Assembly (NCBI GenBank): GCA_016180815.1
Contig: JACPAN010000002.1
Coordinates: 1 to 64,000, forward strand
Length of the DNA: 64,000 nucleotides
Origin: Elusimicrobiota bacterium
GTDB taxonomy: Bacteria > Elusimicrobiota > Elusimicrobia > JACQPE01
Direction: 5' to 3'
Numbering within the stretch: the stretch's first letter is position 1; the number at the start of each line of letters is the position of its first letter. The notes under the pieces are model-generated. The model saw nothing but the letters and a program-made list of their open reading frames with translations. It was not told the origin of the DNA and did not search any database. Shown here in pieces: positions 33,944 through 35,717 of this stretch. Made by a program: the position numbers and the translations under genes.

Positions 33944-34795
33944 CTATGTTTTTTCAATGCCTGCCGGTTTCTTTCGTTGTCCCTCCAGCCCCAGCCAGAA
34001 TGTGTGGATGGAATCCAATGCCTTGCGCCCTCCTTCCAGGAAGCGCCCGGCGTCAAAGCCCGGCTCTCCGAATGTTTCTTCCAACTCATGCCAGACATTG
34101 GCCCCGTGCCCGGATTCGATTTCAAAGTGGTATTGGAAGAAGGCCAAGGGCAATGGAGGCAGGCCGTTGTTGATGCGCCGCCGCTCATTGAAGAGCTCTA
34201 GGCCGGTGATGAGTTCTTTCCAGAAATTATCCGGTTCCGCCTCGCTCCCGATGCCGAACGCGGCCCAGTTTTCAATGGCAAAGCTCGCGCCCGCGCCCGT
34301 CATCCCGTCGTGACTTCCGTATGTTTCATCGAGCCCGTTTAAGAACCGGTGGGTAGACGGCCGCCCGGTTTCCCATCGGCCCAGCCGTCTGCGCTCGATG
34401 CCCAGCATGTCCCCGATTTGCCTGAGCCAATTTAAATGCGCGTTTTTGGTGGCGAAGGTTTTGCCCTCGGTGCTGCCGGTGGTCACGTCCAGGCCCACGC
34501 CCAATTCATTCGTCAAAATGAAGCGCGCCCCCCGCTCGCCTTCCTCGGTCGCGGCATTAACCATGCGCTTGGCCTGAATCACGATGAAGTGATTGGAAAA
34601 CACCGAGAATTGCTCGATCAGGTCAATGACCTGGGCTTCATCGGCTAAACCCTGCCTGAACCATCGGGTGTAGGCATTGTTCGTGATGACGGGATGGTTG
34701 AAGAATTCCCGTTCGATCGTTCGTTCAAAACGCTCCAGGGCGTTTTGCGTTGAGTTTGCGGTTCGCGCATTCGCCGCTATGACGCTTGTCGACAT
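33944..34795 (-). CDS. Heme-oxygenase-like diiron oxidase candidate
   Basis: From ATG 34795, preceded by AGGAGGA, the product is 283 residues. It has an all-helical pattern with the metal-ligand spacing of heme-oxygenase-like diiron oxidases: Glu and His in IEQFSVFSNHF (helix 1), Glu in FILTNELGVGLD (helix 2), and H-x3-E-x2-H in YHFEIESGHGANVW (helix 3). Chlamydial CADD, UndA and BesC belong to this superfamily and use O2 for oxidative cleavage or N-oxygenation; PqqC and TenA are related folds without iron. Substrate cannot be read from sequence. A terminator-like hairpin and a 29-codon ORF lie directly upstream. Confidence 0.7.
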   Translation of the reverse strand: MSTSVIAANARTANSTQNALERFERTIEREFFNHPVITNNAYTRWFRQGLADEAQVIDLIEQFSVFSNHFIVIQAKRMVNAATEEGERGARFILTNELGVGLDVTTGSTEGKTFATKNAHLNWLRQIGDMLGIERRRLGRWETGRPSTHRFLNGLDETYGSHDGMTGAGASFAIENWAAFGIGSEAEPDNFWKELITGLELFNERRRINNGLPPLPLAFFQYHFEIESGHGANVWHELEETFGEPGFDAGRFLEGGRKALDSIHTFWLGLEGQRKKPAGIEKT

Positions 34796-34818
34796 AGAGT
34801 CCTCCTTGTTTTTGAACA

Positions 34819-34861
34819 ATAAAAAACCCACTTGGGAATCTTTGGGATTCTCAAGTGGGTT
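34819..34861 (-). terminator. Attenuator-like intrinsic terminator before the diiron oxidase gene
   Basis: Arms at 34825-34840 and 34846-34861 pair over 16 bases with one G-U, around a five-base loop. Read on the minus strand the stem runs straight into a six-T tract. It ends about 25 bases before the oxidase start codon and lies after the 29-codon ORF, so it can stop transcription between them. Partial read-through or an antiterminator would set the peptide-to-enzyme ratio. Confidence 0.8.
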
Positions 34862-34893
34862 CTAAGTCTGTTTTTTCTTAAAGATCGGTCAGC

Positions 34894-34983
34894 TTAGGCG
34901 AAGGCCACCCGAGAACGCCCGCCGGCACGGTAATAATACCGCCCGTCAAGCATCTCGCAGTAATAATGCCTTCGCATCTGCAT
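34894..34983 (-). CDS. 29-residue Tyr/Arg-rich leader peptide ORF
   Basis: ATG at 34983 (or 34977) to TAA at 34894-34896 encodes 29 residues. The composition is striking: five Tyr, seven Arg, one Cys, with segments RRHYYCEMLDG and RYYYRAGGRSR that look like two related halves ending in Gly. It lies about 30 bases after the end of the upstream His-rich repeat gene, on the same strand, and before the terminator that precedes the diiron oxidase. No strong ribosome site is visible (GAGTG only). It may be a substrate peptide for the oxidase or a regulatory leader. Coding status is unproven. Confidence 0.4.
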   Translation of the reverse strand: MQMRRHYYCEMLDGRYYYRAGGRSRVAFA

Positions 34984-35012
34984 CGCACTCAATATATCAC
35001 AATTTCCATTGC

Positions 35013-35717
35013 TCAAAAACTTCTAAACAAAGGGCCGTCCGGCGCTTTTTTCTTCGTTGGCGCTGCTTCCGGGGGACTAACCGGATCGGCTGTTTTTTGG
35101 GCGCCGCCGGCGCCGGCATCTTTTTTGACCGGGGCCGAATCCCTCAGATAGTTTTCACCGTCGCTCCAGGCGCCGTCATTCTTTTTAAATTTTTTGATTT
35201 GGTATTCCCTGACGGCTTGTTGCCTTTCTTCGGGCGGGAGCTTTTTGATTTGTTCGTAAGCGGCTTTGTCTTGTGGCGTCATATGTTTTTTGTTGGGGGC
35301 GCTGTATTGCTCCGTTTGATGTTCGGCTTTAAATTCGCGCATGGCCTGTTCTCTTTGCTCGGGAGGCAATCGCTGGATTCGTTCAAATTCGGCCTTGTCT
35401 TTAGGCTGCATGTGTTTTTTCTCATGGGCGCTGTTTTGCCCCATGCCGTGCTTCATTTTAAATTCCCGGATCGCCTGCTTTTGTTGTTCCGGGGGGAGTT
35501 GTTTGATGCGTTCCATTTCGGCCTTTTTAGCCGGGTCCATTTGATGCCATTGGCCTTGTTGCCCCTGTTTCCCGTATTGCCCGGGGTGGCTTTGATGCCC
35601 TTGGTGTGACGCCTGATCGTGTTTCTTGTGGTCCTGTTGTTGATCTTCGTATTCTTCATAGGCCGAGCAAATAGAAATCCCGATAACCGAAATCAGAATA
35701 AAAGTGATTGTTTTCAT
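35013..35717 (-). CDS. Exported protein with three tandem 43-residue repeats
   Basis: This 234-residue protein has a signal peptide (TITFILISVIGISICSA) and a His/Gln-rich N-terminal region. Three tandem units follow, each about 43 residues, built on xxPxxKAxxExIxxLPPEQ then an xQAxREF-type helix; units are joined by a KKH motif. The repeats resemble DUF3106-like or envelope metal/stress sensor helices, but no family is assigned. The C-terminus is Lys/Pro-rich. The tiny peptide ORF and the oxidase follow on the same strand. Confidence 0.55.
   Translation of the reverse strand: MKTITFILISVIGISICSAYEEYEDQQQDHKKHDQASHQGHQSHPGQYGKQGQQGQWHQMDPAKKAEMERIKQLPPEQQKQAIREFKMKHGMGQNSAHEKKHMQPKDKAEFERIQRLPPEQREQAMREFKAEHQTEQYSAPNKKHMTPQDKAAYEQIKKLPPEERQQAVREYQIKKFKKNDGAWSDGENYLRDSAPVKKDAGAGGAQKTADPVSPPEAAPTKKKAPDGPLFRSF

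Follow-up and report, generated by a model that had tools for sequence, protein, structure and literature searches.

On the minus strand of the analysed window, a stretch of 64,000 nt from an Elusimicrobiota genome of 2.85 Mb (99.5% complete), a gap of 217 nt separates the gene of a secreted 234-aa repeat protein (stop 35015-35013) from the ATG of an oxidase gene at 34795. The gap contains a 29-codon ORF and an intrinsic terminator, the latter with a U tract that stops ~24 nt short of the oxidase start. The protein encoded directly upstream of this leader region (35013-35717, minus strand) has several internal repeats and a sub-threshold DUF3106-like match. Neither a transporter nor a partner enzyme is found near the oxidase, and the neighbouring 372-aa protein shows no synteny in genomes of the same family. 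In the direction of transcription, the features are:

34991..34999, minus strand: candidate extended -10 element, TGaTATATT, read from the sequence by consensus only
34894..34983, minus strand: leader ORF, 29 codons plus stop (34896-34894), with Tyr codons 7-8 and 16-18
34898..34975, minus strand: hairpin 1:2, over codons 3-29 of the leader ORF (z = -4.6, 0/300 shuffles)
34905..34916, minus strand: region 2, GUUCUCGGGUGG, antiterminator strand and 3' arm of hairpin 1, complementary over 12 bp without gaps to the 5' arm of the terminator
34819..34861, minus strand: intrinsic terminator (3:4) with U tract, stem 34861-34825 (z = -6.4)
34847..34858, minus strand: region 3, CCACUUGAGAAU, segment of the 5' terminator arm, pairing partner of region 2
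34801..34807, minus strand: Shine-Dalgarno sequence AAGGAGG of the oxidase gene
33944..34795, minus strand: diiron/dimetal oxidase of the heme-oxygenase-like diiron oxidase (HDO) superfamily, 283 aa, assigned by fold and conserved residues

The mini-ORF product, MQMRRHYYCEMLDGRYYYRAGGRSRVAFA, comprises five Tyr, six Arg and one Cys. The original prediction, made from the sequence of the locus, had described a strong terminator followed by a well-started gene with no transporter or second modifying enzyme adjacent, all of which is borne out; it had also given the length, Tyr and Cys content of the mini-ORF correctly, counted one Arg too many (seven), and noted two related YY-containing halves, a similarity that is real and reflects a direct DNA repeat, GG(C/T)ATTATTAC, with copies 30 nt apart. 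ORFs of this length are common: when the intergenic sequence is dinucleotide-shuffled, 28% of the shuffles contain one. At least five Tyr residues are seen in 0.02-0.03% of shuffles (P = 0.0002-0.0003) and in only one of the window's 173 ATG-initiated ORFs with 25-40 aa. As far as the sequence can tell, the Tyr codons are clustered in the manner of the single-amino-acid codon runs that are a trait of class I attenuators. A sigma-70 scan of the minus strand revealed no full promoter, and the mini-ORF has neither a good -35 box nor a Shine-Dalgarno sequence; a leaderless start is assumed, and the transcript may begin at about the first base of the mini-ORF start codon, from a putative promoter at the candidate -10 element. 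The gene that follows the oxidase (33870, minus strand) likewise has a -10-like box, TATAATcatactcATG, 7 nt ahead of its start, and the first residues of its product, MQMKRYTCSM, are close to the mini-ORF start MQMRRHYYCEM; this likeness possibly indicates a leaderless start signal common to both, or else a small duplication.

The leader region is predicted to fold very stably (z = -6) and matches no known RNA family in Rfam. Hairpin 1:2 (34975-34898), which had been overlooked at first reading, competes with the terminator and carries the Tyr codons in its internal and apical loops. The pairing of region 2 with region 3 comprises 12 bp, including three G-U pairs (longest-run P = 0.0003, duplex-energy P = 0.001 against shuffles), and when 27 terminator-like hairpins of Elusimicrobiota DNA were subjected to the 2:3 pairing test, only that of the window reached P ≤ 0.05. 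For the switch model, the transcript was folded as it would exist just before synthesis of the terminator 3' arm, with a ribosome placed codon by codon. In this folding model, the antiterminator value is 0.8-0.99 while the ribosome occupies any of codons 1-19, has dropped to 0 by codon 23 and stays there as far as the stop, and is 0.17 without a ribosome; none of 2000 shuffles displayed the full switch. Antiterminator and terminator ahead of the oxidase gene are thus predicted to be mutually exclusive, as expected of a class I attenuator. In the same modelling, E. coli pheL gave the same profile as the window leader, and the hisL control an imperfect, partly matching one; the trpL control was not significant in the simpler 2:3 pairing test. 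All five Tyr codons lie within the permissive stretch, and so do Arg codons 4-5, 15 and 19; Tyr specificity therefore rests on the YY/YYY runs and on a second leader from another phylum.

This second leader, at the locus of Ca. Polarisedimenticola (Acidobacteriota; L019), is a Tyr-rich ORF of 27 codons, MITTRQERYLGYAYYRTVTVPAPGNLA, which together with a terminator precedes an HDO gene. Its Tyr content was compared with shuffles alongside that of the window leader (P = 0.002 and P = 0.0003, respectively), and its 2:3 pairing is an 8-bp G/C duplex. There is no sequence relationship between the two leader ORFs, and the HDO genes behind them belong to different, fully supported clades, so the Tyr-leader arrangement most likely arose twice. 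According to the folding model, the L019 antiterminator reaches 0.87 with ribosomes on the Tyr codons and 0.18 at the stop; the value without a ribosome is also 0.87, meaning antitermination in RNA that is not translated, and 11 of the 2000 shuffles reproduce the switch, which makes L019 the weaker case. A short ORF with at least four Tyr plus a terminator directly before the HDO gene was found at two of 28 loci, the window and L019 (the window terminator entered this count from a separate hairpin scan and fold, the strict pattern missing its internal mismatch). The short ORF before the HDO gene of the Kovacikia minuta plasmid (L037) has three Tyr and no terminator, and was discounted, since it probably represents the tail of the homogentisate dioxygenase gene.

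What the computation shows is the set of parts and their complementarity, the switching behaviour, and an independent second case. Attenuation at the window leader is strongly favoured by the modelling, and tyrosine is likely to be its signal, the stalling being attributed to the Tyr codons. As a whole, a ribosome-mediated transcription attenuator with Tyr control codons probably drives an HDO of phenylalanine/tyrosine metabolism. It could operate in the following manner: Transcription would start near 34983. With ample charged tRNA-Tyr, the ribosome would travel to the stop codon and mask region 2, permitting the terminator to form ahead of the oxidase gene. A shortage of charged tRNA-Tyr would stall the ribosome at Tyr 7-8 or 16-18, and region 2 would pair with the terminator 5' arm; with regions 2 and 3 paired, polymerase would read into the oxidase gene. 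RNA that is not translated would adopt hairpin 1:2, leading to termination. The original prediction had spoken of an attenuator and had considered a regulatory leader as its alternative; the in-silico switching as a ribosome-mediated attenuator, together with the Tyr-rich leader and terminator of L019, endorses that alternative. No description of leader-peptide attenuation for tyrosine or in Elusimicrobiota was found in the literature searched, to both of which the window leader would extend this mode of control.

The same arrangement had been interpreted as a ribosomally made, oxidatively modified peptide. The placement of a short, Tyr-rich ORF immediately before an HDO gene agrees with such a RiPP-like system, in which the Tyr/Arg-rich peptide would be the oxidase substrate, and a review of HDOs lists the modification of ribosomal peptides among their roles (PMC13108848). 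However, the check proposed for it, a scan for short ORFs upstream of oxidase homologues, revealed a homologous ORF at none of eight Elusimicrobiota orthologues and none of 18 distant loci, 341 Elusimicrobiota genomes, searched at both peptide and DNA level, returned chance matches only, and no transporter or partner enzyme is nearby. Attenuation explains both the terminator and the pairing between peptide gene and enzyme, and the Tyr codons are better understood as control codons. The mini-ORF was rejected as a RiPP precursor because the peptide is not conserved with the enzyme (0/26 related loci), and the modified-peptide interpretation is very improbable.

Less remote, albeit still unlikely, is a leader that binds tRNA or protein, or an element akin to a riboswitch, with the AUUAUUAC loops being read by a factor and the ORF being incidental. 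The very stable fold would suit such an element, as would the position of the two Tyr-codon repeats in hairpin 1, whose internal and apical loops they occupy; yet no Rfam family matches, and the L019 leader has no such loop repeat, whereas Tyr codons, terminator and 2:3 pairing are common to both leaders. Slightly less probable again is a chance constellation, with the terminator ending the upstream 234-aa gene, the mini-ORF being a random frame and the HDO gene being transcribed from an unseen promoter. The leader is known from one genome only and is not conserved in the phylum, there is no other terminator between the upstream gene and 34861, and the promoter consensus is weak, all of which chance would accommodate. 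On the other hand, it is improbable that the Tyr content, the hairpin, 12 bp of 2:3 pairing and the switch should coincide, a second case exists in L019, and the ~24 nt between terminator and start codon are too short for a separate standard promoter. Ribosome-mediated attenuation remains the preferred reading.

The target of this attenuator was assigned to the HDOs in the original prediction from its E...H, E, H-x3-E-x2-H spacing, an assignment that is confirmed by invariant ligands and by fold. The candidate ligands E97, H120, E175 and H223-x3-E227-x2-H230 are invariant in a 27-sequence family alignment, so that, judged from sequence, the HDO set of three His and three carboxylate ligands appears to be present. 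The AlphaFold model (pLDDT 91.2) adopts the heme-oxygenase-like all-helical fold, and its top Foldseek matches are HDOs (prob 1.00), the best being CtCADD and BesC. Pfam yields only a sub-threshold PF14518 match, with no family at the curated threshold and no match to PF00351 (Biopterin_H); a profile of the 27 relatives weakly detects 9pj4 (4-aminobenzoate synthase), 7twa (BesC) and 3b5o (CADD-like). A self-sacrificing pABA synthase of the CADD/NePabS type was rejected, there being no invariant Tyr in the family alignment.

A search of 340 other Elusimicrobiota genomes revealed orthologues of 57-67% identity in eight of them, and relatives of ~29-43% identity occur in Vampirovibrio, Planctomycetota, Acidobacteriota, Methylococcales, UBP7 and on two cyanobacterial plasmids, the only plasmid records with a match; phage records have none. 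A divergent LysR gene lies directly upstream, within ~11-145 nt, of all eight Elusimicrobiota orthologues, and the LysR proteins are 58-69% identical to that of locus L004; the host genome has only a paralogue of 25% identity elsewhere. The LysR-HDO intergenic regions (L004, L022, L030-L035) share AT-rich GTTAAC-type motifs, e.g. TAGTTAACTATAAGTTAA, which are a candidate LysR operator by sequence. At eleven other loci, an Lrp/AsnC gene of one of two subfamilies is located upstream of the HDO gene; in Xanthomonas and Mesorhizobium, the gene for phenylalanine hydroxylase (phhA) likewise has Lrp/AsnC neighbours (PMC1173090). The HDO gene is followed by HPPD at L008 and L013 (HmgA being confirmed in L008), and at L012, of which L015 is a near copy, an HPPD gene is found ~1.8 kb upstream. 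On the Kovacikia minuta plasmid (L037, 492-9874), FAH, HPPD, HmgA, HDO, acyl-CoA synthetase and aminotransferase genes form one stretch, apparently a tyrosine-degradation cluster with the HDO inside. In two Elusimicrobiota genomes, the HDO gene is within a few kb of trp genes: trpD, trpC and trpF in one (L030, 4315-6672), trpC and trpA in the other (L033, 4658-5446 and 10105-10896). Only the window gene and L019 have neither a neighbouring regulator nor an evident gene-cluster partner (L036 and L015 being counted as cluster-embedded). Taken together, the LysR, Lrp/AsnC, HPPD/HmgA, trp and phhA contexts point to aromatic amino-acid metabolism. A class V aminotransferase-family gene adjoins the HDO gene in Methylococcaceae (L012, 4592-5773) and Gloeothece (L036, 6822-8755), the latter also being beside a 2OG-Fe dioxygenase gene; these aminotransferase neighbourhoods may indicate another substrate.

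The host itself is apparently a Phe/Tyr auxotroph: TyrA (PF02153), present in 14/14 control genomes, is absent, and neither PheA, by homology to E. coli PheA, nor a Biopterin_H/phenylalanine hydroxylase was detected in its genome. PheA was found in 0/9 HDO-bearing versus 30/64 other Elusimicrobiota (n = 73; Fisher P = 0.009) and, within one genus, in 0/5 HDO-bearing genomes versus 6/8 others (P = 0.02), P values that are optimistic because the species are related; several HDO-negative Elusimicrobiota also have neither PheA nor TyrA. Biopterin_H (PF00351) is missing from all HDO-bearing genomes and records searched, which says little since its absence is usual in bacteria (present in 1/14 controls and 1/80). 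HPPD is absent from the host genome, which rules out that the host oxidase feeds an HPPD pathway; weak sub-cut-off matches elsewhere in the phylum are probably other vicinal-oxygen-chelate proteins.

Overall, a role of the HDO in Phe/Tyr metabolism is somewhat favoured. Since the oxidase would be on at Tyr shortage in an apparent Phe/Tyr auxotroph, it most plausibly supplies tyrosine; a tyrosine consumer under such control would presumably be mis-regulated. Hydroxylation of phenylalanine is the leading guess, tentative as it is, and fits both the Tyr-shortage control and the catabolic settings. By extension, the subfamily might, speculatively, comprise phenylalanine hydroxylases of a diiron type that needs no pterin, or other oxygenases that supply tyrosine, biosynthetic in Phe/Tyr auxotrophs under Tyr-codon attenuation and catabolic beside HPPD/HmgA elsewhere. 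Nothing linking heme-oxygenase-like enzymes to homogentisate or phenylalanine hydroxylase was found in the literature. Two independent lines, Tyr-codon regulation and Tyr-catabolism neighbours, tie a cross-phylum diiron oxidase family to one amino acid and provide a concrete substrate prediction that is cheap to pursue; if Phe is indeed converted to Tyr, the enzyme would be a non-homologous replacement for the pterin-dependent phenylalanine hydroxylase.

Compared to known class I attenuators (E. coli pheL-pheA, hisL, trpL), the window leader shares an ORF rich in one amino acid, the alternative 1:2, 2:3 and 3:4 hairpins with a terminator just before the gene and, with pheL, the in-silico switch profile. 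It differs in its control amino acid, tyrosine (a survey from 2005 named T-boxes for Tyr and attenuators for His, Thr and Phe; PMC1262725), in its target, an oxidase rather than a classical biosynthetic operon or tRNA synthetase, in its likely leaderless start and in its phylum, Elusimicrobiota. With the HDO superfamily (CtCADD/NePabS, BesC, UndA, SznF, FlcD) the oxidase has in common the fold (TM 0.74-0.78 by target length) and the E...H...E...H-x3-E-x2-H ligands, whereas its identity to the best structural matches, CtCADD and BesC, is ~15%, its family has no invariant counterpart of the sacrificial Tyr of self-sacrificing CADD, and its subfamily is linked to LysR, Lrp/AsnC or tyrosine-catabolic genes. 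The setting resembles that of the phhA(-phhB-phhC) module, with an adjacent Lrp/AsnC gene in several lineages, or HPPD, HmgA, FAH and aminotransferase genes; the HDO, however, is an unrelated protein, and the likeness is one of gene context.
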